DNA of 64,000 nt from Nymphaea colorata (taxonomy: Eukaryota; Streptophyta; Magnoliopsida; Nymphaeales; Nymphaeaceae), in contig NC_045149.1 of NCBI RefSeq assembly GCF_008831285.2, positions 18,925,035-18,989,034 of the forward strand, read 5' to 3'. The translations under genes and the position numbers were made by a program. The notes beneath the pieces are model-generated. The model did not search any database and was not told where the DNA came from. It saw nothing but the letters and a program-made list of their open reading frames with translations. Positions 32,655-59,852 of the stretch are shown piece after piece. Position 1 is the stretch's first letter, and each line of letters starts with the position of its first letter.

Positions 32655-35600
32655 TGACAAAATTACTGGGAGTTGTACTAATCGCTCTGTGAGTCTGTTG
32701 TACATCTGCTAGCGCCTATGAGCTGAGAAAAATTTCTGTAGCTTAATGTTGATGCAGGTTCTTGGAAGCTGACGGTCTGTCAGCTACTTAGTTGATTAGA
32801 TCATTGGATTGCCTCACTTAGTTACTGAAACCATTTAATCTTTAGTACAGTCTTATTGTGGCGGAATTGCCAATGATTGCTTTGGCAAAGTAAAGAAAAG
32901 CCAATTGCAAATTCTCTGCCAATACCAACGATCTTTAAACACCTGGAACTACAACAGCTGCCATATTCGGGCACTAAAAGGAGGCACCGAAGACAACCAA
33001 ATTTGTGGTTTGGTGATTTGTCCAGAGTTGATGAGAAAATGATTTATCGATTGGTCACGGCCTCACTTGTTTTGACTCATTTGTGTGTGAGAAACAGGCG
33101 TAATTAGCCTCACTTTATTGCAAAACTCAATGGGAATTGTCAAAGCTTTGATTAGCTCCACCAAGTGAAAGTCTTGAATTAGGGTTGCAAGTTTCTTGAG
33201 TTACAGTAACATAGGCGACTATGATGTAGAAGCATGAACTCATAAGTTTGGAGTTGGTAGAATCTGAACGGTAATTGTCAAAGCTTGGTTAGCTCTGCCA
33301 TGTTAGACTCTGGATTCAGAGTTGCAAGTTGTGTGAGTTACAATAACTTATACAGTTATGATTTAGAAGCATGTATTCATAAGTGCAGTTGAGAGAATCT
33401 AAAATTTTACAACTTACAATTTGGATTGGTGGCTGAGAGCTATGTGTGCTTTTGCTGATTTAGTGCATGAATGTAAAAAAATTGGAGTTAGTTACCAACA
33501 TTCATACGTTGTGGGAGAAACTTGCTTTTTCTTTAAGCAGGTTCAAGAAAAAGAGAAGAAAACTGAGGGACTTAAGTTGCCTGTGTTACTTAAAAAAGAA
33601 ACTTTTTTTTTTTAAACTCAAAATCTTGAGGTATCAACTCTTTGTGCTGTAAAAAGAGGGCTATTGATGAAAGTAATAAACGGTTGGGTGATGTTTCGGC
33701 CTTCTACCAAGCGGTGGTCTTTCTCAGTCATTCAGACCAAGTTATGGTATTCACGTTAAAAAATTAAAGGCAAAATTGATAACCTAACGTTTAAACGATA
33801 ATAAAGTAATAAAGCGATCTCAGGCCCTTATTTTTTTAAACAGAAGATATCCCGAAACACTTTGTTTACCTCCTGCGAACAAAATTGGGATACTTTGAAA
33901 ATGCAGAATCTATTTAGGGATATCAAATGTCTAATTTGAATCAGATGTACCCATTACTGTATCTGATGCATAGAATGCTCACATATTTGAATTTGGACAC
34001 GAACAAAGAAATGCCAAAGTATATCTAAATCCAATTTTTAAAATTCAAAATCTAAATATGATTCCCATCTTACTTTTAAATTCACAACTAAATTCAAATC
34101 CACCGTTTTATGCACAGTTGAATCCAACCATATTATGACATGTTAAGAATCAACTTTGCAAATAATTTATGGATATTGGATTCAAGATATTTATTTCAAA
34201 CTGAATCATAATTGAATAAATATTTGCCTAAAACTAAATTTGATTGGAAGCCATTTTTCTTAAATGTGAGTGCAATTTCTTAATCGGATGTTAGATTTTT
34301 TTTTTCCATATTGGATTTTTTTTTCTCATTTCTTTGAGAAAGCCTAGTTTTCAAGAACAACTAGTACAGCGATATGGTGCCTCTTGTTCTTGATCCTTTT
34401 TTTTTTTTGTGTTTGAATGGTTAAATTCTCCTGAAACTGCCACACAGAAATGGATCAATTCTTGTGCATCACATTTATCGAATTGCTTAGGTTAGAAATA
34501 TGATTACCGGTAAATAGTCAATTCTAGCTGTGATCCAGAACTTGACCAAATCTAGATCCAAATTCAAATAGTTTCCAACTTCGAATCCATGCAGCGAGTT
34601 GGTCCAATTACCCAATCACACTTTCAGCTGAGTTACAATTAGCTTGTGGATGGACATTTTTTCCATCATCTCATGTTTGAATCCCAAAATGAGCAAAATG
34701 ATACAATGTAAAAATATTTACTTGGGTACAATATTAACTTAATATTGAACAATGTAAAAATATTGACTTGGGTCATAAAAACTCTGGTTAGAAAAGAAAA
34801 AAATTCTAATTAAAAGTTTGACAACACTTTGGATTCCACTGCCCCTTAGTTTTATTATTAGACTAGCATTAGCAAATTGGTTTAACTTAAAGCTGATCTA
34901 CTATCATTTTCCAAAATTTTAAGAGAGAGAGAGAGAGTCAAATATATGGTGTTTCTATGCAGTGCAGGTGGAATTTTGGCACTTGTACATCTTTTCAAGA
35001 GGCTTAGACCAAGGATATTGAAGAAATTTATACAACATAAATGAGAGTAACCAATCATGGCTGTACATAATAGAATATTTGTCCCAAAAAGTCAAATGGA
35101 TCTAGGTATTGGATTTTGAACCACTTTGGGTTCCAAATCTCATTGGGATCCTTAAAAATTTATGCATATGCTTAAACTGTGTCCTGCCATATCAACCACA
35201 AAATGAAATAGAGGGCGATATTTTTGTTATTTTATTAATATATCATGAATCAATATTTTATATGGTCTGGATAAAACAATATTGATAGAAATATTGCATG
35301 CATAGGCAAAGTTCAAATTAAATTTCAATTCAGCTGTATAATTTCAGATATTTTATGTTTATTGTCTGATAAGATTTTGGAAAGTTGAATTTGAGTTAGA
35401 TTCGTACTTCAACTGTAAAAGATGGATCCATTTAGATATCCGTTCTGATCAATTAAATCATGTTTTTTAGCAAAAATTTGCTTAAAATGTCAAGAAATAT
35501 AGCTTGTACGTGTCACATTCACCTAAGCTTTGATGCAAATTAGGGTTTAGTGTGTGGCACAACTTTCCATGCAAAATTTAGTCTTATATTGTGGAGGGAA

Positions 35601-36515
35601 AGTTCTTCCTTCTCTGCAGCTATAAATAGAGATGACTTGTGGGAGGTCAAGGCACAAATTCTAGGGCAAAGGGCTTGCACAAGAGTTGGGAAGACACTTA
35701 GATCATGCTCTGTCCTTGGTGAAGAAAGGCCTCTTGGTGGCTTGGCTTTATTCTTTTTTTTTTTTTTTACTGTTTTGAGTTATGATCTTGCTTTGCTTTG
35801 CACATGTGATAGACTATATTATATTTCTTGCATATGCATGTAGTTTCCTTTAAATTATTCGGTATTTTAGCTCATTAAGCATGAATTGACACATTATATT
35901 AATTGTTGCACTTGTGGATCAACCCAGATGTTGCACACAACATACCTAATCAAAAGTTAAGTGAAACATGTTAAGTAGGCCATTTCTTTTTTAAAAACCC
36001 TAATTTCACTTAGCATTTCATTGATACGCTTTAGAACTCCTGATTTCAAAATGGATTTAAATTAGTTAGGCACAAATGTTTACATTGATGTTCCATAACT
36101 TCGTTGTTATGGGGGGGATTTTGCAGCTAAATTCAGAGTTTAACAGACTAAATATCTCAGTTGTGACCTAATAAATTGAACTTAATTATAATTATCAAAG
36201 AAGTTGAGGTTAAGTATTAGCTTGGGGTGCCCAATATGAATGTAGAATAACTATTGGAGAAGAGGGTACTCGGCTGCTTTATTTTCTTTAAATTCTAATG
36301 TAGATTTCTTCATAGCATAAAATATGTATAAGTGGGCAAGCCATATGTAACATTGATGCTGATATTGGTATCACTAGATAGAACTCTTCTTGGTGTAAAA
36401 TAAGTTCATTGTGTAATGTGACTGATTAGCAAAGTACAATTGCACATTCATCCAGGTTCTGCTATTTATTCTTCAGTAATTTTATTTGAAATATTGATCT
36501 ATCAAAATAATTAAA
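32655..36515 (+). repeat. R repeat copy 1 (longest, about 3.9 kb)
   Basis: Collinear with 37638-41010, 50112-51090, 55355-58497 and, in reverse, with 43460-44430 and 52960-54420. Blocks in order are AATTACTGGGAGTTGTACTA at 32660, GTGTGTGAGAAACAGGCGTA at 33084, AATTTGGACACGAACAAAG at 33991, CATTAGCAAATTGGTTTAAC at 34867, TATAAATAGAGATGACTTG at 35621 and CGGCTGCTTTATTTTC at about 36270. No transposase or reverse transcriptase is visible. The TATA box could mark an LTR, but no matching internal region was found. It starts only about 335 bp after the TOM9 stop. Confidence 0.8.
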
Positions 36516-36936: not shown

Positions 36937-37634
36937 TGGACCCAAGCTTTATATTTTTCACCAACCAAAAAAAGGACAATAAAAGGCGGTAAAGTGTCAG
37001 TAAAACTTCCACTATTGTGATTAGGAGCTCGACACGAAGGGCGTTCAGTACAACGGGCCGAACGCAAAATGTGTCCTAAGGTTCAAAAGTTAAAATTGGT
37101 GAAATAAGAACATGTTGATCATATTTAAACAAATAAAACCCCATTAAAGGCAAAAATAAAAAACCGGATTTAAGTTGGTGAGAACACAAAGATGGAAACG
37201 GATTTCAAGCCTTATCGGATTGACTGCTTGCTTGTGGGGGAAGACAATTCATAGAAAAATAGAAACATTTTTGTGGTTGAAGCTAACTCTTGCTGCCAGC
37301 AAAACACAACTGTGTATATGACTCACAACTGTGCATGTGACTCACATGAAAAGTTGTGTTTTGCTGACAGCAAGAGTTAGCTTCAACCACAAAAATGTTT
37401 CTATTTTTCTGTGAATAGTCTTCCCCCACAAGCAAGAGAGAAAATCGGATAAGGCTTGAAATCCGTTTCCATCTTTGTGTTCTCAACAACTTAAATCCTG
37501 TTTTTTTTGCCTTTAATGGGCTTTTATTTGTTTAAATATGATCAACATGTTCTTATTTCACCAATTTTAACTTTCGAACCTCAGGAGTTCTTTTTTTGGT
37601 TGGTGAAAAGCATAAAGCTTGGGTTCAACTAAAA
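36937..37634. repeat. Palindrome 1, about 0.7 kb inverted repeat
   Basis: The left arm begins GGACCCAAGCTTTATA and the right arm ends CATAAAGCTTGGGTTC. The inner ends are GCTAACTCTTGCTGCCAGCA near 37282 and its complement near 37360, separated by a short spacer containing repeated ACTCACA(A/T) words. The left arm has an extra block of about 100 bp (about 36977-37077) lacking in the right arm. The right arm abuts R copy 2 directly. Confidence 0.85.
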
Positions 37635-37637
37635 GGC

Positions 37638-40600
37638 ACCGTGACTGCAGAAATTCACAAATATTGATATGCTAGGGACTTTGTCTGAGGTGATTTGGAC
37701 AACCCATCTCCCATAAGCATATGCAAAACCTGAATGTGCCAGAATAGCTCAATGTATGGGAGAGTATCCCTGAGCATGGTTGGCAGACAACCAAATTTGT
37801 GGTTGGGTGATTTGTCCAGAGTTGCTGAGAAAATGATTTATCAATTGGTCACAGCCTCACTTGTGTGTTAGAAATAGGTGTAATTCGCCTCACTTTATTG
37901 CAAGACTCGAATCGGAATTGTCAAAGCTTTGATTAGCTCCACCAAGTGAAAATCTTGAATTAGGGTTGCAAGTTTCGTCAGCTATGATGTAGAAGCATAA
38001 ACTCATAAGCTTGGAGTTGATAGAATCTGATCGGCAATTGTCAAAGCTTGGTAAGCTCTGCCATGTTAGAGTCTTGATTTAGAGTTGCAAGTTGTGTGAG
38101 TTACAATAACTTATACAGTTGTGATTTAGAAGCATGTATTCATAAGTGCAGTTCAGTTCAGAGAATCTAAAATTTTAAAACTTACAAGTTGGATTGGTGG
38201 CTGAGAGCTATATTTGCTTTCGCTGATTTAGTGCATGAATGTAAAGAATTGGAGTTACCAACATTCATACGTTGTGGTTGAAACTTAAGTGCAGTAGGCA
38301 CTTCAGTTGCCTGAGTTACATAAAAAAGAAACTTTTTTTTTTTGAAACTCAAAATGTTGAGATATCAACTCTTTGTGCTGTAAAAGGGAGGGGGGGCCGC
38401 GGTCCTCTTTCCCAATCACCCAGACGAAGTTATAGTATTCATGTTTAAAATTAAAGGCAAAAAACGATAACCTTACGTTTAAATGATAATAAAGTAATAA
38501 TGCGATATCAGGGACTTACTTTTTTTAAACAGACGATAACCGGAAACGCTTTGTTCATACCTCCTGTAACCAAAATCGGGATATTTTGAAAATGCAAGCT
38601 CCAATTAGGATATCAAATGTCTAATTCGAATCAGATGCATAGAATGTTCGCGTATTCGAATTTGGACACAAACAATGAAAAACCAACTTTCAAAATAATG
38701 TATGGATATTGGATTCAAGATATTTATTTAAAACTGAATCATAATTGAATAGATATTTGCCAAAAACTAAATGGGATTGGATGCCATTTTTCTAAATCTG
38801 AATGCAATTTCTTAATCGGATGTCAGCTTTTTTTTCCATATCGGATTTTTTTTCTCCTTTCTTTGAGAAAACCTAGTTTTTAAGGACAACCAGTAAAACA
38901 GTACGGTGCTTCTTGTTCTTGATATTCCTTTTTTTTTTTTTCCTGTGTGTTTGAACGGTTAATTTCTCCAGAAACTGTCACACAAAAGTGGATCAAATTC
39001 TTGTGCATCACATTTATCCAACTGCTTAGGTTATAAATATGATTACCGGTAAATAATTAATTCTAGCCGCAATCCAGGTCTGGACCAATTTTATATCCAA
39101 ATTAGAATGGTTTCCAACTCCGAACCCATGCATCCAGTTGGTCCAATTACCCAGTCACGCTTTCTGCTGGGTTACAATTAGCTTGTAACGTTTCTTCCAT
39201 CATCTCATGTTTGAATCCCCAAAAGGGCACCTCTTAGTTTGTTTAATATTGAGCAAAATGATACAATTTTAAGTTGATATGCTTTCTTTTAAAGGAACAA
39301 AAATATTAACTTAATATTGAACAATGTAAAAAAATATTGACTTGGGTCATAAAAACTCTGGTTAGAATAGAAAAAAACATTCTAAGAGTTTGACAACGCT
39401 CTGCCTGCCACTGCCCCTTAGTTTTATTATTAAACTAGCATTAGCAAATTGGTTTAACTTAATGCTGATTTACTATCATTTAAGTCAACAGTGAAACTGT
39501 CCAAAAATTTAAGAAAGAAGGGGGGGGGGGGGGGGGAGAGAGAGAGAAAGAGTTTCAAATATATGGTGTTTTCTATGCAGTGCAGGTGGAATTTTGGCAC
39601 TTTTAGATCTTTTCAAGAGGGGTAGATCAAGGATATTGAAGAAATCTATTCAAAATAAATGAGAGTAACCAATAATGGCTATATATAATAGAATGTTTGT
39701 CCTAAAAAATCAAATGCATCTAGGTATTGGATTTTGAATCACTTTGGGTTCCAAATCTCATTGGGATCCTTAACAATTGATGCATATGCTCAAACTGTAT
39801 CCTGCCATATCAACCACAAAATGAAATTGAGATCGATATTTTTTGTTATTTTATTAATACATCATGAATCGATATTTTATATGGTCTGGATGAAACAATA
39901 TTGACATAAGTATTGCATGCATAGACAGAGTTCCTAACAAGTTTCAATTCAGATATATAATTTCAGATATTTTGTGTTTATTTTCTGATAAGATTTTTAA
40001 TATAAAAGTTGGATTTGTGTTAGATTCAGATTTCAAATGTAAAAGATGGATTCATTTATATATCAGTTCTGAACAGTTAAATCATATTTTGTAGCGAAAA
40101 TTTTCTTAAAATGTCAAGTACTTCATGCAATATAGCTTGTATGTGTCACATTCCCCTAATCTTTGACGCAAGTTAAGGTTTAGAGCATTGCACGACATCC
40201 CATGCAAAATTTAGTCCTGAATTTATTGTGGAGGGAAAGTTCTTCCCTCTCTGCAGCTAAAAATAGAGATGATTTTTGGAAGGTCAAGGCACAAATTCTA
40301 GGGCGAAGAGCTTGCACAAGAGTTGGGAAAAAACCCAAATCATGCTATGTCCTTGGTGAAGAAAGGCCTCTTGGCGGCTTGGCTTCATTCCCTTTTTGTT
40401 TTTTACTGTTTTGAGTTGTGATCTTGCTTTGCTTTGCATATGTGTTAGACTATATTATATTTCTTGCATATGCATATAGTTTCCTTGAAATTATTGTATA
40501 TTTTAGCTCATTAGGCATGCATTGACACATTATTTTAATTGTAGCACTTGTGGATCTATACAGATGTTGCACACGACCTGCCTACTCAAAAGTTAAGTGA

Positions 40601-41023
40601 AACATGTTAACTCATGATTGGATACACTTTATAACTCATGATTTCAAAATGGATTTAAATTAGTTAAGCACAAATCTTTACATTGATGTTCCATAACTTC
40701 GTTGTTACGGGAGGGGTTTTGCAGTTAAATTTGGAGGTTAGCAAACTAAAGAGTTCAGTTGTGACCTAATAACTTCAAACTTATTCTAATTATCAAAGAA
40801 TTTGAGGTTAAGTATTTGCTTGTGGTGCCCAATATGAATTTAGATTAACTAGTGTTGGAGAGGGTACTCGGCTGCTTTATTTTCTTTAAATTCTAATGTA
40901 GATTTCTGCAGAGAATAAAATATGCATAAGTGGGTCAGTTTATTCTACAATTGCACATTCATCCAGGTGCTGCTAATTATTCTTTAGTAATTTTATTGGA
41001 AACATTGATTTATCAAAATAATT
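37638..41023 (+). repeat. R repeat copy 2 (about 3.4 kb)
   Basis: Collinear with copy 1 from its GGCACCG block onward. It includes a segment (37680-37790, TTGATATGCTAGGGACTTTG and following) absent from copy 1 but present in copy 3. The TATA box is degraded here (CTAAAAATAGAG near 40257). A run of about 17 G at 39520-39536 replaces the short GA tract seen in other copies. Confidence 0.8.
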
Positions 41024-42200: not shown

Positions 42201-42564
42201 TCAAAGTACGTTATGAAATATATCTGGTATGTGTCAACTGTCACATTCACCTAAGCTTTGATGCAAATTAGGGTCTAGTGCGTGACACCATTTCTCATGC
42301 AAAATTTAGTCCTGTATTTATTGTATTTATTGTGGAGATAAAGTTCTTCCCTCTCTATAGCTATAAATAGAGATGATTTTGGGAGGTCAAGGCACAAATT
42401 CTAGGGCAAATAGAGTTGAGAAAAAACCCAAATCATTCAAGGGTAATTATTCCTTTTTTGTTTTTTTTTACTGTTTTGAGTTATGAACTTGCTTTTGCTT
42501 TGCTTATGTGATATTATGTGATAGACTATTATATTTCTTGCATGTGCATTCAGTTTCCTTTAAA

Positions 42565-42834
42565 TTATTGTAGCATTACCTTGAGATTTTTTACCGAGAC
42601 GCCGGAATCGTTGTCGACGGCAATGGGTCTGACTTTCTGCCAGTCGGTTCTGTCTATGAAATTGGCGATCATCCGGGAGAGAGCGACGCTGCCCAGTTCC
42701 ATGTTGGCATGATCGCCAAAGGGCACTTTTCCTTCAAGCAGCCACCTCAATCTCGTCCTTCCAATGGCCGATGATCTGAATGTGGTCGATGCACTCCTCA
42801 TGGGAGTGGATGGCATTTGAATCGCTTCCGGAAT
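42565..42834 (-). pseudogene. Gene fragment in left arm of palindrome 2
   Basis: An open minus-strand frame whose core (RSAS, LLEGKVPFGDHA, MELGSVALSRMIANFID, VDNDSGVSVKNLK) matches the right-arm frame. Roughly 18 of 80 aligned residues differ, including a one-codon indel. It looks like part of an N-terminal exon of a host gene. The pattern xRLRxL...GSVxLxxMVxNFI resembles the N-terminal part of the DUF506 family, but the match is short. Probably not translated. Confidence 0.45.
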
Positions 42835-43209
42835 TGGTATGCAGAAGAAGAAAAGAAAAAAAGAAAAGGAAAGAAGCAAATAATAAGAAAAATCCTTCTT
42901 CCCTAATAATTGACCGATCGAAATATAAAAAGTTGGTGGTTTTCATCAATCGCGATAATACGAAACAGAAAGTAAGAAGGAAGATGAAAAAAGGTTGGAT
43001 GGAGTGTTTTTCTCTTAGACACCATCCAACCTTTTTTTCATATTTTTCCTTCTTTTCTATTTCGTGTTATCGCGATTGATCAGTTCTGAGAACCACCAAC
43101 CTTTTATTTCGATCGGTCAATTATTAGGGAAGAAGGATTTTCCTTATTATTTGCTTCTTCCTTGCTTTTTTTTTCTTGTCTTCTTCTGCATACCAATTCT
43201 GGAAGCAAT

Positions 43210-43462
43210 TCAAATGCCAAACGCTCCCACGAGGAGCGCATCGGCATTCAGATCATCAACCGTCGGAAGCACAAGATTGAGGCGGCTGCTTGAAGGAAGA
43301 GTGCCCTTTGGTGATCATGCAGACGCGGAACTGGGCAGCGTCGCTCTCTCCCGGATGGTCGCCAATTTCATAGACGGAACCGACCAGCGAAAGGCCAGAC
43401 CCATCGCCGTCGACAATGATTCCGGTGTCTCCCTGAAAAATCTCAAGCTACATGCCCAATGA
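43210..43462 (+). pseudogene. Gene fragment in right arm of palindrome 2 (DUF506-like?)
   Basis: An open plus-strand frame with STRLRRLLEGRVPFGDHA, then ELGSVALSRMVANFIDG, then VDNDSGVSLKNLK and a stop at 43460. It keeps the basic LRRL better than the left arm, where one Arg is Trp. GC content is well above the surrounding R sequence, as expected of a captured exon. Likeness to the N-terminus of plant DUF506 proteins (basic LxRL then SVxLxxMVxNFI) is recalled from the family, not confirmed. No catalytic domain follows. Confidence 0.45.
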
Positions 43463-44430
43463 GTTGAAATATATAATAATTTAAAGGAAACTATATGCAC
43501 ATGCAAGAAATATAATATGGTCTATCACATAAGCAAAGCCTCCAAGAGGCCTTTCATCACCAAAGACAGAGCATGATTTGGGTTTTTTCCCAACTCTCTT
43601 TGCCCTAAAATTCGTGCCTTGACCTCCCACAAGTCATCTCTATTAATAGCTGCAGAGAAGGAAGAACTTTCCCTCCACAATAATTACAGGACTAAATTTT
43701 GCATGGGAAATTGTGTCACACACTAGACCCTAATTTTAATCAAAGCTTAGGTGAATGTGACACATACCGGCTATATTTCATAAAGTACCCGACATTTTAA
43801 GCAAAATTTTGTTAAAAAGCATGATTTAATTGTTCAGAACTGATATCTAACTGAATTCATCTTTTACATTTGAATTCTGAATCTAACCCCAATCCAACTT
43901 TTATATTCAAAATTTTATCGGACAATAAACATAAAATATCTGAAATTATATATCTAAATGAAATTTGATAAGAACTTTGTCTATGCATGCAATATTTCTA
44001 TCAATATTGTTTCATCCATACCATATAAAATATGGATTCATGATACATTAATAAAATAACAAAAATATAGCTCTCTATTTCATTTGTGGTTGGCATGGCA
44101 GGATACAGTTTGAGCATATGCATCAATTTTTAAGGATCCCATTGAGAGTTGGAACCCAAAGTGATTCAAAATCCAATACCTAGATGCATTTGACATTTTG
44201 GGACAAATATTCTATTATATACAGCCATGATTGGTTACTCTCATTTATTTTCTATAGATTTCTTCAATATCCTTGATTTAAGCCTCTTGAAAAGATGCAC
44301 TTGTGCCAAAATTCCACCTGCACTGCATAAAAAACACCATATATTTGAAACTCTTTCTCTCTCTTAAATTTTTGGACAGTTTCACTGTTGACTTGAATGA
44401 TAGTAGATCAGCTTTAAGTTAAACCAATTT
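43460..44430 (-). repeat. R repeat copy 5 (minus strand)
   Basis: Reverse-complement collinear with copy 1 from about its 35870 to its 34860 equivalent, ending at TTTGCTAATGCTTGG. The outer arm of palindrome 2 is its right-hand end as read in the R direction. The TATA is altered (CTATTAATAG in reverse at about 43640). Confidence 0.8.
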
Positions 44431-44437
44431 GCTAATG

Positions 44438-44810
44438 CTTGGGTTCAAATGAATCAGCAAACTCCACTCCCTCACTCTCCTTTTTTTCTTTTTGGAAAAA
44501 AGTCTCTACAATATAGGTCTAAACAGTAGGTATGAACCATTTAGTATAGTTAGACATTATAAACATGGCATTAAACAATTGAAGAAACAGTTGAGACCTG
44601 CGCAGATCCTATGGCGATTTACCGAAGCATGCTAATTCCAATGAATGGCCAAAAATCATGCTTCAACGTATCAATCTACCACTATCTCTTTCACCCATGC
44701 AGCTCATCTGAAGAATCAAAACAATGCTTCAAAAATGCAGGACTTGCAGCTTACAGTTAACTCTAGATACAAGGTCTGGGTGTGACTTGTACCCTTTAAG
44801 AGTATTACAT
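44438..44810 (+). repeat. Module M copy 1
   Basis: Near-identical to 54397-54765: GAATCAGCAAACTCCACTC, GGTATGAACCATTTAGTATA, AAACAGTTGAGACCTGC, TCTGGGTGTGACTTGT. Its first 60 bp is also the reverse complement of 36888-36947 beside palindrome 1. Short degenerate frames in both copies show no family. Confidence 0.75.
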
Positions 44811-44903
44811 TAAAAGTATTTTTAATTGTGTCCTAAGGTGGCTACATAAGCTAGAAAATGATGCATAGACAACAAAATCAGAAATGAAAAAATATAGTTA
44901 AAC

Positions 44904-45309
44904 TAAATATGAAGCAATCGTGCTAATTAAAAATTTTCAAGCGATGCATATCTGGGACAAAAAAATGTATTCCATACTTTAATTCAACTCAGCTTTTGAA
45001 TGGGGCGGATGATTCTAGGAAACATGAACTAATAATAGCAGGCGGTCAAAAACGGATGTTTCGCCCTTTATTGCATATGAACAATGAAGGTGGCTAATGA
45101 CTCTTTGATTGGCCACCTTCATTGTTCATATGCAATAAAGGGCCAAACATCCGTTTTTCACCGCCTGCTATTATTAATTCATGTTGCTTAGAATCATCCG
45201 CTCCATTCCGAAGCCGAGTTGATTAAAAAGGCAAATGGATGGAACCATTTTTTGTCTCATATATGCATCGCTTGAAAATTTTTTAGTTGGTACGATTGCT
45301 TCATATTTA
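44904..45309. repeat. Palindrome 3, about 0.4 kb
   Basis: The arms run from AAATATGAAGCAATCG inward to GAACAATGAAGGTGGC, and from GCCACCTTCATTGTTC out to GATTGCTTCATATTT, with a spacer of about 15 nt near 45105. The arms share GCAGGCGGT, CGGATGTTT and GCATATGAACAATGAAGG. Confidence 0.9.
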
Positions 45310-45447
45310 TTTTTTAGTAATCTTATTTGAGATGTTGGTTTATCAAAATAATTTAAAAAAAAAGAGAGAATAATTCTAAGAAAAAGTAAGATATAAAACA
45401 GTAACTATGCACTATAAACGCAGTTTTATTTGTTTTGCATATATAGC

Positions 45448-46585
45448 ATAATGCTCATAATATTTCTAAAGAGTGCAAAAGCATCAAACAGCAGCACCCT
45501 TTCTTTTTTCAGAGAGGGAGAGAGATGCCGCGTTTCTAGAAGGCTAAAACCACATCTGCACATCCTTTTTGCATTCTCTTGGTCATTGCATAACAATTGA
45601 ATATTTCTGTCTTTCTTTTTTTGGTTTCATTCTTGCTTTTAAATCTTCTGTTTCCAGGATTATGTAAGCAACATTTTCAGTCATGTTACTGCTTAGCCAT
45701 CAACAAGCAACCACCTTCATTGCCCATATACAAGAAAGGGCAAAACGAAAACAAAGTGAGAGAAATAAGGTGGCTACATAAGGTAGAAAATGATGCATAG
45801 ACAACAAAATAAGAAATCAAAAAATATAGTTAAACAAAATATGAAGTAGTCGTACTAATTAAAAATAGCGATGCATATAGGAGACAAAAAAACGGTTCCA
45901 TACTTTAATTCAACTAAGCTTTTGAATGGGGCGGATGATTCTAGGAAACATGAACGAAAAATAGCAGGCGGTGAAAAACGAATGTTTCGCCCATTATTGC
46001 ATATGAACAATGAAGGTGGCTAATCATTGTTCATATGCAATAAAGGGCCAAACATCCGTTTTTCACCGCCTGCTATTATTAATTCATGCTGCTTAGAATA
46101 ATCCGCTCCATTCAAAAGCCGAGTTGATTAAAAAGGTAAATGGATGGAACCATTTTTTGTCTCATATATGCATCGCTTGAAATTTTTTTAGTTAGTACGA
46201 TTGCTTCATATTTAATTGTAACTATAATTTTCATTTCTGATTTTGTTGTCTATGCATCATTTTCTAGCTTATGTAGCCACCTTCTTTCTCTCTCACCTTG
46301 TTTCTGTTTCGCCCTTTATTGGATAGGAAGTAAAATGACTGAAAAATTTGCTCACATAATCCTGAAAACAGCAGATCTAAAAGCAAGAACGGAACCAATA
46401 AATGTAAAAGGAGAAAAAATCAAGTGTTAGGTAAAGCCAAGGGAATCCAAAAAGGATGTGCAGATGCGCTTTAGCCTTTTAAAAAGGTGGCCTCTCTCTC
46501 TCTCTCTCTCTCTCTACATAAGAAAGGATGTTGCAGTTTGATGTTTTGACTCTCTTTAAAAATGCTATGTATTGGTAAGTTCAAT
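45448..46585. repeat. Palindrome 4, about 1.1 kb
   Basis: Centre near 46019, with almost no spacer (AATGAAGGTGGCTAATCATTG). The core repeats the sequence of palindrome 3. The arms extend further outward through AGAAAATGATGCATAGACAA, TTCTTGCTTTTAAATCT and the AGAAGGCTAAAACC/GAGAGAG block to TATTTCTAAAGAG on the left and CTCTTTAAAAATG on the right. The right arm contains a CT tract at 46492-46515. Confidence 0.88.
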
Positions 46586-46819
46586 AGTAGCTATATGACA
46601 GTATATGATGAGACTTATACATATTTTATACTATTATTAAGGTGCTTTTGATTAAAATCCTTCAGAATTTGAAATTCATGAATTTAAGATCATAGACCTT
46701 CCATGTAGAGAGGATAGGGAAGAAGGAAAACTGAGGAAGAAACAAGTGCCAAAGAGAGGCATATCTTCCTCCCAATGATGGATTCAGCAACATCAAGAGA
46801 GAGATAGAGAGAGAAGCCA

Positions 46820-47385
46820 AGCCATTCGGGATCCAGCTTGGCTTGTCTCATAGCGCCCACGGCTCAGCAAGCCGCTCCCTCACCATTTCCTTTCGAAGTT
46901 CAATCGATTCGAAACGATTCAAACTTCCGATTCGTAAACAGGTGGCTGTTTAAGATTCCGTAGATGCCTCAGCAGCCAAAAAACCTTAAACGCACTCTCT
47001 CTCTCTCTCTCTCTCTCTCTGTTGCTGTTGTTGAATCCATCACTGAGCGGTGGATAAGCCTCAGGTGTGCACTCCCTTCTATCCTCTTTGGCATGTATTT
47101 CTTCCTCGGCCTTCCTTCTTCCCTACCCACTTGCCCTCTCTGCATGGAAAGTTTATGTTGCAATTTCTTGCATATTCGTTGCCCACATTCAGTTATAACC
47201 CTAAACCCAGACACCCCAACATCCATTGTTGGTTTATTTTTCTTGTTTTGATCGGTGTTTGGATCAAAGGAATTGAGTAGTTGTGGGATCGCGGTTTCGT
47301 GCATTTGCCTTCTCATTTAACTGATGATGGAATTCTGGGACCGCATTTGAAACTGTGGTTTTCCAACCAATAGGGATCGGCAGTG
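46820..47385 (+). promoter_or_regulatory. 5' leader and leader intron of the WIYLD gene
   Basis: GC-richer leader with a CT tract at about 46995-47020. A donor TCAG/GTGTGC after 47064 and an acceptor CCAACCAATAG ending at 47373 define a probable 309 bp leader intron just before the ATG. The part around 46826 (CGGGATCCAGCTTGGCTTGTC) recurs in altered form near 42165. Confidence 0.5.
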
Positions 47386-47748: not shown

Positions 47749-49773
47749 TTGGTGTTTGAATTTGATGTTTATCAATCAAACAAGTTGGATTTCAAATCTG
47801 AACAATGTGTATTCTTGGGTTATGCTCTTCAACACAAAGGGTACACATGCATGAGTATGAACAACAAAAGGCTCTACATCTTTCGACTTGTCACATTCAA
47901 TGAGACCGACTTTCCATTCAAAAACAAAAGAGAAGTCTCCAAAGAAGAAAATAAAGACTCACAAAAACAAGGCATAGTCATATCTCTTTCCTCCTTCGCT
48001 TGAAAATCAATCAAACGTCCACCTTCATGGTTCCATGGTACTGAATCAGTTAGTCAAAGTCAACAAACCCATGAACCAGTTCAAGAAATTGTCCGCACAC
48101 ACCAAATGACTACAAAATTCCAAGTAGGCACTCGTCAACCTATTCCTAGATACAATGACTATCATCTATATTCCTCTCACAAACACCCATTGCCTACTGC
48201 CCTTCATTCCAAACTTAATATAAACAGCGAACCTAAAACCATTAGAGAGGCTCTTGCAAATGAGCATTGGAGAGCAGCAATGCAAAACAAATACAATGCT
48301 CTCATGACAAACAGCTCATGGAGACTGGTTCCAAATGATTTTACTAAACATGTCGGGGGATTCAAATAGAACTTGAGATTAAACAGAAGGCAAATGGAAG
48401 TTTGGAAAGGTATAAAGCTCGTGTTGTGACTAAAGGCTATAGCCAAATTAAAGGTGTGGACTATACCCAAACCTTTAGTTTTGTAGTTAAATCCACTGCA
48501 ATTAGAATTGTGCTAACCATTACTTTGAGCCATGAGTGGGCAGTACGTCAATTAGACATTCAAAACTCTTTTTTGCATGAACATCTTTCAAAAGAAGTGT
48601 ACATGGCTCAGCCCCCCAGGTTTGAGGATATAAGATAACTTAACCATGTTTACAAGCTTGAAAAGGCTCTCTATGGATTGAAACAGGCACCTCATGCTTA
48701 GTTTGCTTGATTAAACAAATTTCTCTTACAATTGGAATTTATTACTGCTAAAAATGACACTTCACTTTTTATTTACAGGAACGAGCATTATGTTATATAT
48801 GTGTTTCATTGTTGAAAGCAGCACTAATTAAATCCATAGTGTTATTCAGAGATTTAGAGAGAAATTCGCCATCAAGGACATTGGCCAACTTCATTTCTTC
48901 CTGGGTGTAGAAGAAAAATTTTCAAAGCAAGGCCTAAAACATTCTCAACAAATATATGTCTATGACCAAATCAAGAAGACAAACATGTTGGGTGCCAAAC
49001 TGGTTGCCATTCCCATGGCACTTCTTCCTCTCAGTGCTGATCAAGGTCACAACTTCCATGATCTCACTTTGTATAGGAGTGCAGTCGCAGTCGGTGCATT
49101 TCAGTATGCCACCATGGCAATACCAGATTTAACATACTCTGTCAATAGAGTATGCCAATACATGCATCAAACAATAGATGAGTATTGGAACACAATAAAA
49201 AGAATCATCAGATACTTAAAGCACACCATATCTCATGAGCTAATCATTCAACCCTGTGCTTCTCTATCTATCTCAGCTTATACTGATGTCGATGGGGCCG
49301 GCTGCCCAGATGATCGCAAGTGAATAGGAGGCTATGCTGTTTTCCTTGGATGCAACCTTATATCTTGAAGCTCGAAGAAGCAAGATGTTATTTCCAGATC
49401 TAGTACCGAAGCTGAATATAGGTCACTGGCCAATGCCACTGCTGAAATAATGTGGATCAAATTTTTGTTGCAAGAACTAGGTGTTAAAGAAGGAGCCAAA
49501 GCCAAACCATGGTGTAACAATATTGGAGCTTCTCATCTTGTAGCTCATCCTTTTCACCACAGTCTTTGCAAACATGTTGAAATCAACATACATTTTATGA
49601 GACAAAAGATAGCTAGTGGAGAACTTGATGTCAAGTATATTTCCTCTAAGGAGCAGATTGCATATGTTTTCAGTAAGCCATTGAGACGGCAACAATTTCC
49701 GCACATGATCAACATGCTTCCACTGGTAGCATCCACCGTTAGCTTGAGGAGGGCTGTTCATAGGAACCAATAG
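47749..49773 (+). mobile_element. Degenerate Ty1/copia retrotransposon pol fragment
   Basis: In order: the tail of integrase (KLDFKSEQCVFLGYALQHKG), then reverse transcriptase (EALANEHWRAAMQNKYNALM; YKARVVTKGYSQIKGVDYTQ; VYKLEKALYGLKQAP), then RNase H (RSSTEAEYRSLANATAEIMW and a tail near 49673). Frameshifts and stops interrupt it at about 48003, 48369, 48638, 48700-48980 and 49323, and the YVDD catalytic box of reverse transcriptase is missing. Gag, protease and the integrase core are absent, so it is 5' truncated. Not capable of autonomous movement. Confidence 0.9.
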
Positions 49774-50111: not shown

Positions 50112-51090
50112 TACAAAAATTACTGGGTATTGCACTAATCACTCTGTTGTACTTCTGTTAGTGCCTATGATTTGAGAAAAAATTCTGTAGCTTAAAAAAT
50201 TTCTGTAGCTTAGTGTTGATGCAGGTTCATGAAAGTCGACGGTCTTTTAGCTACTTAGGTGATTAGATCATTGCTGGATTGCTTCACTTAGTTATTGAAA
50301 CCATTTAATCTTTCATACAGTCTTATTGTGGTGGAACTGCCAATGGTTGCTTTGGAAAAGTAAGTCTGACACTACACTGGTTGAAAAAGAAAAGCCAACT
50401 ACAAATTTTCTACTAATACCAACGATCTTTAAACACCTAAAGCTACAACAGCTGCCATATTAAGGCACTAAAAGGCACCATGACTGCACAAATTAACAAA
50501 TGTTGATATGCTAGGTACTTTGTCTGAGGTGATTTGGACAACCCATCTCCCATAAGCATATGCAAAACATGTATGTGCCAGAATAGCTCAATGAATGGGA
50601 GAGTATCCATGGGTCTGGTTGGCAAACAATCAAATTTGTGGTTTGGTGATTTGTCAAGAGTTGCTCTGAAAATGATTTATCGATTGGCGATGGCCTCACT
50701 TGTTTTGTCTCATTTGTGTGTGAGAAACAGGCGTAATTGGCCTCAGTTTATTGCAAGATTCGAATGGGAATTGTCAAAGCTTTGATTAGCTCCACCAAGT
50801 GAAAGTCTTAAATTAGGGTTGCAAGTTTCCTCAATTACAGTAACATAGGCGACTACGATTTAGAAGCATGAACTCATAAGCTTGGAGTTGATAGAATGTG
50901 AATGGTAACTGTCAAAGCTTGGTTAGCTCTGCCATGTTAGACTCTTGATTTAGAGTTGCATGTTGTGTGAGTTACAATAACTTATACAGTTATGATTTAG
51001 AAGCATGTATTCATAAGTGCAGTTGAGAGAATCTAAAATTTTAGAACTTACAATTTGGATTGGTGGCTGAGAGCTATATTTGCTTTTGCT
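50112..51090 (+). repeat. R repeat copy 3 (5' third only)
   Basis: Collinear with copy 1 from AATTACTGGG to GAGAGCTATATTTGC, including GATGCAGGTTC, CACTTAGTTATTGAAACC and GAGAAACAGGCGTAA. It is cut off by palindrome 5 at TTTTGCT/GTATATC, where copy 1 continues with GATTTAG. Confidence 0.85.
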
Positions 51091-52240
51091 GTATATCAAC
51101 TATTACTTGATGGACTGTATTTTGACTAAAAACTACTGTTTTTTGTTTTTGAAAAGCAATTATACTCAATTTTTAGGAGGAGTATTCCATCACCTGAATG
51201 AGAACCTAAGCCCTTCTCCACCACCCTGCTTCTTTTTCTTACCTACATGTTGTAGGGTTGCATTCGTGTCTAGTACAAAGCCCTTGATACATGTTAATTA
51301 ATATATTAGTTCCATCTGTTGGCATAAAAGAGGGGGATGTTCATTCTTAATCAAATTCCAACTGTCTACCAGCCACTTATCTAAGCTAGTGCACCAACTC
51401 CCCTCAAGGCAACACTTAATTGGATAATAATTAAAGAAATATAAGAAAAATAAAAAAATAAAGTATTTTTAGTCATTTTCTTGCCAACCACACCAGAGAT
51501 GATAGCTTCACTATTGCTATTCATCAAAGCTATCTACTTTTGTAGATGTTGTTTGGCTTAAAATGGACAAAGTTTGTAGTTTTACATAAAATGGAAAAGA
51601 ATCAGCCATAAAATGACCAGTATGGGTAGGCAGCCTTTATTTTAAAAACAATAAACAGTAGCTTTGTTTGAGTTAAGTATATCCATTTTAGCCATAAAAT
51701 ATAGGCTGCCTACCCATACTGGTCATTTGGTCATTTTATGGCTGATTCTTTTCCATTTTATGTAAAACTACAAACTTTGTCCATTTTAAGCCAAACAACA
51801 TCTACTAAAGTAGATAGCTTTGATGAATAGCAATAGTGAAGCTATCTTCTCTGGTGTGGTTGATTGGAAAATGAGTAAAAGTACTTTTTTTTTTCTTATA
51901 TTTCTTTAATTATTAACCAATTAAGTGTTTCCTTGATGGGAGTTGGTGCAGTAGCTTAGATAAGTGGCTGATAGACAGTTGGAATTTGATTAAGAATGAA
52001 CATCCCCCATGCCAACAGATGGAACTAATATATTAATTGACATGTATCAAGGGCTCTGTACTAGACACAAATGCAGCCCTACAACCTGTAGGCAAGGAAA
52101 AGAAGCAGGGTGGTGGAGAAGGGCTTAGGTTCTCTTTCAGGTGATGGAATACTCCTAAAAATTGAGTATAATTGCTTTTTAAAAACAAAAAATAGTAGCT
52201 TTTAGTCAAAATAGAGTCAATCAAGTAATAGTTGATATAC
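51091..52240. repeat. Palindrome 5, about 1.15 kb
   Basis: The arms start GTATATCAAC and end GTTGATATAC. The centre is near 51667, with AGGCTGCCTACCCATACTGG on the right and its complement on the left. Both arms hold the same open frame of about 70 codons in opposite orientations (KSNYTQFLG, ENLSPSPPPCFF), which is unlikely to be a protein gene. Confidence 0.92.
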
Positions 52241-52264
52241 ATCATAAAAAGCAATTATACTCAA

Positions 52265-52622: not shown

Positions 52623-52959
52623 TTGTCGATCCGATCCGATTCTCACAAGAAATGTATGAAGGATGGCCAACTGTAGATTTAAATATTGAAATACCTAAAT
52701 TATTATAGGACCCACACTTCCTTGTGTGTGTCTGTACGTGCACACTCACATGTGGATGTGTTTCCAATGTATGCAAGCTTGGGTTATATAGAGATCCCTA
52801 GCAGTTTATTAAAAGCTAGTTAATGTAGTAAACGTAATTCAAATACGTTTGTCAAGTAACTAACTCAGGTCATTTATCTTTTAGCAATGTTCATAGCTAA
52901 TCAATATTTATTTTCTCTTGCATATGCCTTGCCCGCGTATACATTTTTTATGCTCTGCA

Positions 52960-54420
52960 GAAATCAACATTAAAACGAGAGAAAATAAAGCAGCCGAGTA
53001 CCCTCTCCAACAATAGTTAATCTAAATTCATATTGGGCACCCCAAGCAATTACTTAACCTCAAATTCTTTGACATTTATAGTTAAGTTAAGGTCAAAACT
53101 GAAATCTTTAGTTTGTTAAACACCGAATTTAGCTACAAAATCCCTCCCATAACAACGATGTTATGGAACATCAATGTAAACATTTGTGCCTAACTAATTT
53201 AACTCCATTATGCTAAGTGAAGTTAGGGTTTTTCAAAAAGAAATGGCCTACTTAACATGTTTCACTTAACTTTTAACTAGGTATGTTGTGTGCAACATCT
53301 GTATAGATCCACAAGTGCAACAATTAAAATAATGTGCCAATGCATGCATAATGAGCTGAAATATACAATAATTTAGAGGAAACTATATGCACATGCAAGA
53401 AATATAATATGGTCTATAACATAAGGAAAGCAAAAGCAAGATCAAAACTCAAAAAAGTAAAAACAAAAAACAAAAAAGGAATAAAGCCAAGCTGCTAAGA
53501 GGCCTTTCTTCACCAAAGACAGAGCATGATCTGGGTTTTTTCCCATCTCTCTTTGCCCTAGAATTTGTGTCTTGACCTCCCACAACTCATTTCTATTTAT
53601 AGCTGCAGAGAGGGAAGAATTTTCCCTCCACAATAAATACAGGACTAAATTTTGCATGAGAAATAGTGTCACACACTAGACCCTAATTTGCATCAAAGCT
53701 TAGGTGAATGTGACACATACCAGCTACATTTCATGAAGTACCTGACATTTTAAGCAAATTTTTGCTAGAAAACATGATTTAATTGATCAGAACTGATGTC
53801 TAAATTGAATCCATCTTTTACATTTGAAATCTGAATCTAACCCAAATCCAACTTTTATATTCAAAATCTTATCAGACAATAAACATAAAATATCTGAAAT
53901 TATATATTTAAATTGAAATTTGATAAGAACTTTGTCTATGCATGCAATATTTCTATTAATATTGCTTCATCCAGACCACATCAATATCGACTCAGGATAT
54001 ATTAATAAAATAACAAAAATGTCGCTCTCTATTTCATTTTGTGGTTGATATGGCAGGATACAGTTTCAGCCTATGCATCAATTTTTAAGGATCCCAATGA
54101 GATTTGGAACCCAAAGTGATTCAAAATCCAATACCTAGATGCATTTGACTTTTTGGGACAAATATTCTATTATATAGAGCCATGATTGGTTACTCTCATT
54201 TATTTTGTATAAATTTCTTCAAAATCCTTGATCTAAGCCTCTTGAAAATATATATAAGTGCCAAAATTCCACCTGCACAGCATAGAAAACACCATATATT
54301 TGAAACTCTTTCTCTCTTAAAATTTTGGACAGTTTCACTGTTGACTTAAATGATAGTAGATCAGCGTTAAGTTAAACCAAATTTGCTAATGCTTGGTTTC
54401 AAATGAATCAGCAAACTCCA
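52960..54420 (-). repeat. R repeat copy 6 (minus strand)
   Basis: Reverse-complement collinear with copy 1 from its right end (AAAGCAGCCGAGTACCCTCT near 52990) to TTGCTAATGCTTGG. An intact CTATTTATAG (TATAAATAG in reverse) lies at about 53590. It is followed by module M, exactly as in copy 5. Confidence 0.82.
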
Positions 54421-55354: not shown

Positions 55355-56334
55355 GTGGTATGGAGTAATATTTGCCTAAAACTAAATTCGATTGGATGCC
55401 ATTTTTCCTAAATGTGAATGCAATTTCTTAACCGGACGTTAAATTTATTTTTCCATATTGGATTTTTTTTCTCATTTCTTTGAGAAAACCTAGTTTTTAA
55501 GGACAACTAGTACAGCGGTATCGTGGTTCTTGTTCTTGATTTTTTTTTTTTTTTTGTGTTTGAATGGTTACTGAAACTGCCACACAAAAATGGATCAATT
55601 TCTTGTGCATCACATTTATTCAATTGCTTAGGTTAGAAATATGATGACCGGTAAATAGCCAATTCTAGCCGCGATCCAGAACTTGACCTAATCTAGATCC
55701 AAATTTGAATGGTTTCCAACTTCGAACCCATGCAGCGAGTTGGTTCAATTACCCAATCACGCTTTCAGCTGAGTTACAATTAGCTTGTGGATGGTCATTT
55801 TTTTCCATCATCTCATGTTTGAATCCCTAAATGGCACCTCTTAGTTTGTTTATTATTGAGCAAAATGATGCAATTTTAAGTTGATATGCTTTCTTTTAAA
55901 TGAACAAATCAGCACAATGTTAACTTAACATTGAACAATGTAAAAAATATTGACTTGGGTCAAAAAGATGTTCTGTATATGAGCATCTTCAAACGGGGCT
56001 TATTGCTATTGATTCGATGATCCCCATAGGACACAAGAATTAATGATTGGAGACAGACAGACCGGTAAAACAACAGTAGCTACAGATTCTATTCTCAATC
56101 AAAAAAATCAAAATGTAATATGTGTTTATGTATCTATTGGTCAAAAAGCATCTTTCAAAACTCTGGTTACAAAAGGAAAAAAAAAACATCTAATTGAGAG
56201 TTTGACAACACTTTGCCTGCCACTGCCCCTTACTTTTATTATTAAACTAGCATTAGCAAATTTGTTTAACTTAAAGCTGATCTACCGTCATTTAAGTTAA
56301 ACAGTGAAACTGTCCAAAATTTTAAGAGAGAGGG

Positions 56335-56384
<50 letters not shown>

Positions 56385-57500
56385 AATATATGGTGTTTTC
56401 TTGGCATTTGAATATCTTTTCAAGAGACTTAAATCAAGGATATTGAAGACATCTATACAAAATAAATGAGAGTAACCAATCATGGCCGTATATAATAGAA
56501 TATTTGTCCCAAAAAGTCAAATGGATCTAGGTATTGGATTTTGAATCACTTTGGGTTCTAAATCTCATTGGGATCCTTAAAAATTGATGCATAGGCTGAA
56601 ATTGTATCCTGCCATATCAACCACAAAATGAAATGGAGAGCGATATTTTTGTTAATTTATTAATATATCATGAATCCATATTTTATGTGGTCTGGATGAA
56701 AAAATATTGATAGAAATATTGTATGTATAGACAAAGTTCTTATCAAATTTCAATTTAAATATATAATTTCAGATATTTTATCTTTATTATCTGATAAGAT
56801 TTTGAATATAAAAGTTGGATTTGGGTTAGATTCAGATTTCAAATGTAAAAGATTGATTCAATTAGATATCAGTTCTGATCAATTAAATCATGTTTTCTAG
56901 CAAAAATTTGCTTAAAATGTCAAGTACTTCATGAAATATAGCTGGTATGTTCCACATTCACCTAACCTTTGATGTGAATTAGGGTCAAGTGTGTCACACG
57001 ATTTCCCATGCAAAATTTAGTCCTGTATTTATTGTGGAGGGAAAGTTCTTCTCTCTCAGCAGCTATAAATAGAGATGACTTGTGGGAGGTCGGGGCACAA
57101 ATTCTAGGGCAAAGAGAGTTGGGAAGAAAACCCAAATCATGCTCTGTCTTTGGTGAAGGAAGGCCTCTTGGAGTTATGATCTTGCTTTTGCTTCGCTATA
57201 GACTACATTATATTTCTTGCATGTGCATATAGTTTCCTTTAAATTATTGTATATTTCAGCTCATTAGGCATGCATTGACACATTATTTTAATTGTTGCAC
57301 TTGTGGATCTTTACAGATGTTGCACACAACAAACCTAGTCAAAAGTCAAGTGAAACATGTTAAGCAGCTTATTTTTTTTTTAAAAACCCCAATTTCACTT
57401 GGCATTTGATTGGATACACTTTAGAACCCAATATTTCAAAATGGATTTAAATTAGTTAGGCACAAATGTTTACATTGATGTTCCATAACTTCGTTGTTAC
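55355..57500 (+). repeat. R repeat copy 7, interrupted by plastid DNA
   Basis: Collinear with copy 1 from about its 34215 equivalent (TTTGCCTAAAACTAAATTCG) to about its 36110 (CCATAACTTCGTTGTTA). An atpA fragment interrupts it at 55968-56156. A GA tract of about 45 bp lies at 56338-56382, much longer than in other copies. TATAAATAGAG lies at about 57064. The right end passes directly into R copy 8. Confidence 0.83.
55968..56156 (+). pseudogene. atpA: Plastid atpA fragment in the nucleus (NUPT)
   Basis: Translated in pieces it gives [20 protein letters not shown], then, after a frameshift, [20 protein letters not shown] and [15 protein letters not shown]. This is the nucleotide-binding region of the plastid ATP synthase alpha subunit; the Walker A box GDRQTGKT lies at 56049-56072. 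The frame breaks near 56020, where several bases are missing, and substitutions are scattered, so it is an old, non-functional plastid transfer. Other R copies read GGGTCATAAAAACTCTGG at this point, so the insertion replaced only a few bases. Confidence 0.93.
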
Positions 57501-58497: not shown

Positions 58498-59852
58498 TGA
58501 AAATGAAAGTGTTCAATGCGAGACCTAGCAATGGTGGTGTGATTAAAATGCATCGCATCATTGTCTATTAAACGCGCAATTTGGTTTTGAACTGAGTCCT
58601 TACAGTTGTCTATTTCTCGGGTATTATACTCATTTTTTTTCAAATAATACGTGTTTTATGTGACAATTACACTGTCCTTAGTTCAAATTTTGTAATAGAA
58701 AGATGAACTGTAGGACCACGGAGGTCCCGAAGTAGCTTCAAATCATAGGGAAAGGAGAAAGGAGAGTGTCTTTGCCTCTCGTGAACCATAAAAAAAAAAG
58801 AAGATTACTGCACCTCTTCCATGTGATCATCCAATTAGTGATGTATATAGATGAGATACAATAGATTATGGATCGCATCTCAAAGAAATCTAAAGCTCAT
58901 TACTCTTTAGATTTGAATTCGGTATATTGCTTTGGGAACCAAATCCGAATTCGAGTTTCCATCCAACTAAAATCGGAACCGTTTGCATCAGATCAGGATG
59001 GGTCCCTTTTAGCACTGCAACCTCATTGATGCCAAGAGTTGCTTACATCCCCACTTTTGGCGTTGGAGAAGAAACTTTTCGATAGGCGAAACAGAATGCG
59101 GAACTCGAAATTCCAAGTGTTGCGTGCTTCTTAAGTGCATCCAAACAAGTGAACCCTAAAGCCAAATACTTTTAATGTAAAAGCAAAAGAAGCAATGTAA
59201 TAGTGTTCTTGCACCCATTTTCTAGCAGCAGCAGCTATAAGCGCTGGCGGGAGCCTTTTGCTTTTACATTAAAAATATTTGGCTTTAGGGTTCACTTGTT
59301 TGGATGCGGTTAAGAAGCACGCAACACTTGGAATTTCGAGTTCTGCATTCTGTTTCGCCTATCGAAAAGTTTCTTCTCTAACGCCAAAAGTGGGGATGTA
59401 AGCAAATCTTCGCATCAATGAGGTTGCAGTGCTTAAAGGGACCCATCCTGATCTGATGTAAACGGTTCGATTTTAGTTGGATGGAAACTCGAATTCGGAT
59501 CTGGTTCCTAAAGCAATATACCGAACTCAAATCTAAAGAGTAACGAGCTTTAGGTTTCTTTGAGATGCGATCCATAATCTATTGTATCTCATCTATATAC
59601 ATCACTAATTCGATGATCACATGAAAGAGGTGCAGTAATCTTCTCTTCTTTTGATGGTTCACGAGAGGCAAAGACACACTCCTTTCTCCTGTCCCTATGA
59701 TCTGAAGCTACTTCGGGACCTCCGTGGTCCTACAGTTCATCTTTCTATTCGAGTGCCCATTCAGCAAAATAGATCCACAAAATAGACAAGGATGCGGTGC
59801 ATTTTAATCACACCACTATTGCTAGGTCTCGCATTGAACACTTTCATTTTAC
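58498..59852. repeat. Palindrome 6, about 1.35 kb
   Basis: The left arm starts GTGAAAATGAAAGTGTTCAA and the right arm ends GAACACTTTCATTTTAC. Shared internal blocks are GGACCACGGAGGTCCCGAAG, CATAGGGA, GAGGCAAAGACAC and AGTGAACCCTAAAGCC. The spacer is about 50 nt near 59200-59250. The left arm is longer, with a block at about 58570-58680 poorly matched on the right. Confidence 0.9.

Follow-up and report, generated by a model that had tools for sequence, protein, structure and literature searches.

What kind of locus is a near-palindrome that carries the same host gene fragment in both arms, and does it stand alone? We asked this of such a structure at positions 42206-43788 of the window, i.e. 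the whole stretch of 64,000 nucleotides of Nymphaea colorata C12 that was analysed. An earlier note described a single locus, either a young inverted-duplication small-RNA locus or a Pack-type element. The locus is real; it is not solitary, being one of many. Its architecture, a shared leader together with gene-derived inverted repeats, is well supported, and we lean towards reading it as a member of a shared-promoter array of long-hairpin RNA genes. Judged from the DNA, hairpin RNA and silencing of the donor genes would be plausible.

The palindrome is present as claimed. A single self-inverse alignment spans 42206-43788 at 77.6% identity with gaps, and its constituent inverted blocks measure 31 to 206 nt and are 83-93% complementary. 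The left outer arm (42206-42572, plus strand) is a copy, PL, of a promoter/leader that we call R; it points inward and has the TATA motif CTATAAATAG at 42361-42370. The left inner arm (42565-43002, sense on minus) and the right inner arm (43020-43451, sense on plus) are copies of the 5'UTR and exon 1 of a DUF506 gene on C6, and between them lies a loop (43003-43020) that measures 18 nt, not the 19 nt first given. On the right, the outer arm ends at 43788 and belongs to a longer R unit, PR (43451-44439, minus strand), which also points inward and has its TATA altered to CTATTAATAG; TATA-like boxes had been proposed for one or both arms. R is not confined to this palindrome: the right R unit extends outside the palindrome, homology with another unit (U3) reaching 44439, and 44806 once the U3 flank is added. 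One frame occupies both inner arms in opposite orientation (42565-42942, minus; 43019-43462, plus), as had been noticed.

A genome search with this frame, the check proposed at the outset, leads to C6:4077692-4078108, the only other copy of the inner-arm DNA and frame found outside the palindrome. This is the likely parent. The proposal that a piece of a host gene was duplicated in inverted form, each arm also having a promoter-like R, is borne out. Because later-exon frames at the C6 locus match the Pfam family PDDEXK_6 (DUF506; E 6e-11 and 3.7e-41), we take the gene to be of the PDDEXK_6/DUF506 kind and the arms to copy its 5'UTR and exon 1, the exon limits being drawn from frames and splice signals. 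Within the arms, Pfam gives 0 families for the right frame and none above cut-off for the left. The copied fragment ends within a few nt of the presumed end of exon 1. Capture from spliced RNA is unsupported, the left arm resembling the donor, by eye, a few bases into the intron. The presumed start codon is ATA in the donor (L005 around 3930) and ATG in both palindrome arms.

The inner arms differ at 54 of 419 aligned positions (~13% divergence), so the locus cannot be called young on this evidence, and the perfect or near-perfect pairing once expected is not there. Compared with the C6 donor, 46 of 405 positions differ in the left arm and 34 of 409 in the right. Substitutions seen once in the three sequences number 29 on the left and 17 on the right, with 14 common to the arms vs the donor (28, 18, and 14 after re-alignment); the arms are therefore no closer to one another than to the donor. 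Among 21-mers, 154 of 301 in the left arm and 208 of 303 in the right have at most two mismatches to the donor. The same divergence speaks to the idea that the palindrome is false, an artefact of assembly: artefactual inversions would be near-identical, and the 142,966-bp region that we assembled around the locus (C12:18925035-19068000, coordinates starting at window position 1) has an N count of 0. No point was found in favour of such an artefact, to which we give next to no credence.

Could the right-arm frame at 43210-43462 instead be a small protein-coding gene? Its codon changes, eight synonymous vs five nonsynonymous (P = 0.008 vs site proportions), would suit one; however, the counts for the arms are tiny, majority-polarised from three sequences, and uncorrected for transition bias. 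Moreover, the left-arm changes look neutral (5 synonymous, 15 not), and each R copy, PL and PR alike, is directed so that it would read the frame of its own arm in antisense. We consider a coding role extremely improbable.

A transcript across the palindrome is predicted to form one long stem. For 42560-43460 the minimum free energy is -660.8 kcal/mol, far beyond chance: shuffled sequences average -248.2 (z -50), and none of 20 reaches the observed value. In the predicted minimum-energy structure, 404 base pairs are distributed over 33 helices, five of them at least 21 bp and the longest 58. Rfam at gathering score gives 0 matches in the 64-kb window and in the pieces L047, L045, L027, L028, and L013.

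A 398-base R query has 28 matches (28 of 28 candidates scored): 15 on C12 at 18.960-19.058 Mb, PL and PR included, and 13 weaker ones on C5 at 6.46-6.98 Mb. The full R unit is 1476 bp (from U3), extending beyond R by ~650 bp on the upstream side and by several hundred bp on the downstream side, and among the 40 of 113 candidates scored its partial relatives besides the C12 copies lie on C5, at C12:18.897 Mb, and on C3. The motif CTATAAATAG is unaltered in 12 of the 15 C12 copies and altered in PR (CTATTAATAG), U2 (CTAAAAATAG), and U12. No convincing long ORF is seen in the unit that would make it a coding gene. In our reading, R is not the end of a transposon; it is the promoter/leader of a family multiplied by local duplication, with promoter activity as its putative role. 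Reading R as an LTR was rejected, its scored copies being confined mainly to the clusters; a C5 copy of R adjoins a pol fragment that we take to be Copia-like. Nor do we claim a single inverted duplication of R plus fragment, because PL and PR do not group together in the R-copy tree; the surrounding nodes have supports of 37 and 47, and the two are not firmly sisters.

The distribution of R bears directly on a Pack-type or foldback transposon family, i.e. one capturing gene fragments between terminal inverted repeats. The inverted repeats do contain captured gene fragments, and the donors lie near gene 5' ends, where those of Pack-MULEs typically lie too. Against this, no terminal inverted repeats end at an element boundary, as the right R unit runs out of the palindrome past the supposed terminus (44439/44806). 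R is not dispersed genome-wide either: all 28 of 28 candidates fall in C12 18.96-19.06 Mb or C5 6.46-6.98 Mb, and wider leader searches, in which 40 of 113 and 40 of 86 candidates were scored, contribute only a few singles on C5, C12, and C3, so scored copies sit almost only in two clusters. Furthermore, the eight palindromes faced by units are without R inside their arms, while a larger inverted pair, U7a/U7b, has R inside. Since the R families are local and the right unit passes its supposed terminus, the Pack-type proposal is unsupported, and we find it very unlikely.

Around the C12 copies of R, inverted repeats are common. With a criterion of arm >=60 and gap <600, the cluster at 34001-133100 (99,100 bp) has 16 inverted repeats, some nested, at 13 places (44835-47157 counted once). 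A control of 168,976 bp, composed of eight 10-kb pieces at round coordinates, window 1-33000, region 134001-142966, and ten donor loci, has them at 3 places, 2 of which are AT dinucleotide repeats. An inverted repeat lies within ~1.8 kb downstream of 9 of the 13 C12 units other than PL/PR. For example, U1 (34865-36350, plus) is followed by palindrome P_U1 (37074-37586) 724 bp past its end, U3 (52918-54393, minus) by P_U3 (51075-52259) after 659 bp, and U4 (56249-57499, plus), whose homology with U8 reaches 58224, by P_U4 (58694-59749) after 1195 bp; U2 (39437-40934, plus), with its TATA altered to CTAAAAATAG, ends 1272 bp before the DUF506 palindrome starts at 42206. Likewise, U5 faces a repeat at 68102-68327 (1801 bp past the unit end), U8 one at 98837-99132 (764 bp), U10 one at 109332-109611 (757 bp), U11 one at 112561-113306 (touching the unit), and U12 one at 129645-130034 (1475 bp). 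Not every feature fits this pattern: U8 lies 2.1 kb and U9 2.7 kb away from the repeat at 100194-101138, and the repeats at 44835-47157, 119520, and 125557 are not clearly behind any unit.

U6, U7a, and U7b go with larger inverted duplications. U7a and U7b sit in 1,845-bp inverted arms, 99.8% identical and 1,350 bp apart (region 85274-90313), which either arose very recently or reflect the assembly; downstream of U6, region 68814-80797 has inverted arms of ~4.7 kb that are 96.8% identical and 2.6 kb apart. The nested inverted repeats at 44835-46569 are mostly the cluster's own sequence and have no good donor outside it, 45456-46569 matching mostly the cluster, with weak pieces outside. Nearby, the DNA of a short frame at 46969-47316 recurs several times within the cluster, and broken frames at window 48004-49773 resemble Copia-type pol, which, judged by translation, we presume them to be.

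Such rearrangement is the starting point of the main rival to the hairpin-RNA array, namely a non-functional graveyard: in a rearrangement-prone cluster, break repair with template switching would paste inverted fragments, segmental duplication would multiply them, and the hairpins would be functionless. We regard this as a serious possibility, short of probable. Whole-unit inverted duplications (e.g. 85274-90313) and the other large inverted pair (68814-80797) favour it; the retention of the TATA motif in 12 of 15 copies does not.

Comparisons among units show that leader and cargo part company. U4 matches U8 at 88% between 56249/96792 and 58224/98824, and the U8 palindrome begins at 98837; the two palindromes have different donors. 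U11 and U10 align at 91%, the U11 side ending at 113297, at its own palindrome (112561-113306), and the U10 palindrome lies 0.75 kb further on and has another donor. U3 and U12 have a common leader (89%) and different cargo, and U1 and U3 agree in leader and in the sequence past the palindrome (37628 / 51091) but not in cargo. In U8 and U10 the cargo is common, via a 2.6-kb duplication. Counting both clusters, one leader family precedes cargo from at least ten donors, in arrays.

We located donors for eight distinct C12 cargoes (DUF506, P_U1, P_U3, P_U4, P_U8/P_U10, P_U9, P_U11, and P_U12; P_U5, P_119, and L045 were left out). Each has one strong non-inverted match outside the cluster, in a different place each time, and "one" means single at the sensitivity of the search, which skips very common words. 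Besides C6, the donors are C9:15078865-15079148 for P_U1 (86%; upstream of a homeodomain gene), C14:519509-519963 for P_U3 (89%; upstream of an RRM gene), C12:15041264-15041973 for P_U4 (82-90%, in pieces, plus a 39-bp match on C2), C7:17342342-17342463 for the one cargo of P_U8 and P_U10 (95%), C12:15273845-15274085 for P_U9 (90%, plus a weak 74% match nearby), C2:30348693-30348886 for P_U11 (91% over about 195 of 374 bp), and C12:4463101-4463209 for P_U12 (95% over 111 bp of 196). Donor placement was judged by ORFs. Two of the donors of C12 cargo are coding or 5'UTR sequence, i.e. DUF506 on C6 and, on C7, what is presumably the exon-1 region of a gene that has XET/GH16 exons; so are the two donors of C5 cargo, the 5'UTR and start of a WRC gene (C9:1.18 Mb) and likewise of a POX/BEL1-type gene (C13). 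Others lie ~0.5-2 kb upstream of ORFs of homeodomain (C9:15.08 Mb), F-box (C12:15.27 Mb), Dof (C2), and RRM (C14) genes, or, at C12:15.04 Mb and C12:4.46 Mb, as far upstream of ORFs without a Pfam family. All 10 of the 10 located donors are thus at or <=~2 kb upstream of an ORF start, a raw count without a random-locus baseline, and 8 of 10 associated genes have a Pfam family; with that same proviso, this argues against a graveyard.

The second cluster repeats the arrangement. With a C5 leader query, 40 of 86 candidates were scored, all on C5 and 39 of the 40 at 6.40-6.98 Mb. Downstream of 22 of these 40 leaders lies an inverted arm pair, starting 788-1557 bp from the start of the leader match. 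In 18 of the 22 pairs it starts at 788-948 bp, a regularity that counts against the graveyard with the reservation that the C5 pairs are non-independent events, because copies duplicate one another. Twenty pairs come from the JmjC/WRC donor (C9:1179967-1180501) and two from the BEL1-type donor (C13:6301902-6302234); in 10 of the 22, the second arm matches the query over only 105-148 bp. Of the 18 leaders without a known arm pair, seven were examined: one has an inverted repeat with a gap <600, one more has inverted arms around a 0.7-1.15 kb gap, and five show no inverted repeat in 3.4 kb. As some C5 leaders are without a hairpin, the leader family is wider than the hairpins, and this absence favours the graveyard. 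The inverted repeat with a gap <600 is a palindrome of 2 kb, 88%, that runs to the end of its piece (L045:1468-3472); the frame there at 1390-1833 resembles the end of a MATE transporter, and Pfam finds nothing in that frame.

At C5:6.70-6.98 Mb, a single JmjC/WRC gene is the source, through its 5' end, of some 20 of the inverted pairs that follow scored leaders. The neighbourhood of that gene (C9:1.18 Mb) matches JmjC (E 1.3e-9) and, marginally below the cut-off, zf-4CXXC_R1, a layout with WRC that we take to be that of KDM3/IBM1-like histone demethylases. The ~20 pairs are possibly a high dose against one chromatin regulator.

Divergence between arms was used to look for constraint and for the order of events. 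On the presumed transcribed strand, 11 pooled palindromes have 134 GU vs 129 AC differences (P = 0.81); as G-U pairs are not favoured, there is no sign of selection on pairing, and this, together with the neutral-looking codon changes of the left DUF506 arm, suits a graveyard. C-to-T/G-to-A decay in the DUF506 arms is in excess at CG (18 of 128 vs 12 of 276 elsewhere; P = 0.0009), which fits methylated DNA of any kind. Evidence that capture and inversion were one event, examined through changes common to both arms vs the mean per arm, is mixed: common changes are fewer in DUF506 (14 vs 23), L027P (40 vs 46), and L028P (9 vs 13.5), equal in P_U12 (2), and more numerous in P_U1, P_U3, P_U4, P_U8, P_U9, P_U10, and P_U11.

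Under the hairpin-RNA array that we favour, each unit would comprise R, serving as conserved TATA promoter and leader, and behind it a short fragment that was copied from a single-copy host gene region and duplicated in inverted orientation. RNA synthesis starting at R and crossing the duplication would yield a long imperfect hairpin (a stem of about 400 bp at the DUF506 locus), which Dicer-like enzymes would cut into siRNAs matching the donor. Exon/UTR cargo (DUF506, XET-type, JmjC/WRC, BEL1-type) would lead to post-transcriptional silencing of its donor, and upstream-sequence cargo (homeodomain, Dof, F-box, and RRM genes) to RNA-directed DNA methylation. We infer that R is a working promoter, as we do transcription, dicing, silencing, and the reason for the cluster's gain of cargo. 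A bolder version, which we think unlikely, is a dedicated cargo-acquiring family of hairpin-RNA genes, in which a conserved cassette of promoter and leader, amplified in both clusters, would time and again take up inverted 5' regions of single-copy host genes and make heritable trans-acting silencers of them. If true, the working of this plant locus would resemble that of a piRNA cluster to some degree, except that its targets are host genes, among them a JmjC-domain (KDM3-like) gene faced by some twenty hairpins.

New siRNA and MIRNA genes are thought to begin as inverted duplications of their targets, and to our knowledge the known cases are mostly single loci. Here, one genome offers a series of palindromes whose arms have diverged to differing degrees (identity about 74% to 98%); donors have been located and the leader is shared, so that the origin, transcription, and decay of such loci, and the emergence of regulators from them, become testable with one small-RNA and methylation dataset. 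The DUF506 locus has an inverted copy of another gene's segment (donor C6:4077692-4078108) and, by prediction only, one long stem (z -50). It is a candidate inverted-duplication siRNA or proto-MIRNA locus, a membership that would rest on small-RNA evidence. The literature, represented mainly by titles and the openings of abstracts, contained no account of such an array.

As far as the consulted portions of the cited sources go, the closest precedents are the following. In the model of Allen et al. 2004, MIRNA and siRNA loci originate by inverted duplication of a founder gene (PMC10004981); as here, the duplication is of part of the founder, and the arms resemble it well beyond 21 nt. The leader here, however, is not the founder's, and one leader family stands before the cargo of at least ten donors, in arrays. 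In Populus, partial inverted duplicates of ARR17 are linked to 24-nt siRNAs and donor methylation (PMC9636151), and also consist of inverted gene fragments, exon 1 included, at another locus; they have one donor and lie in a sex-linked region, whereas our units have many donors and a common leader and are known from DNA alone. Long inverted repeats of rice, likely hairpin RNA precursors of many small RNAs, are similar in form (PMC7649420), but are described as individual repeats rather than as an array in which leaders are shared and gene cargo differs. Pack-MULEs and gene-capturing Helitrons likewise carry copies of host gene fragments elsewhere (PMC10004981). Unlike them, the units here have no terminal structure that we could find, show little dispersal among scored copies, and hold cargo that is inverted-duplicated and leader-linked. 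By analogy, the units would be expected to work much as inverted-duplication siRNA loci do in Populus, in rice, and in the model of MIRNA origin; the new element is the array, with a common leader and changing cargo.
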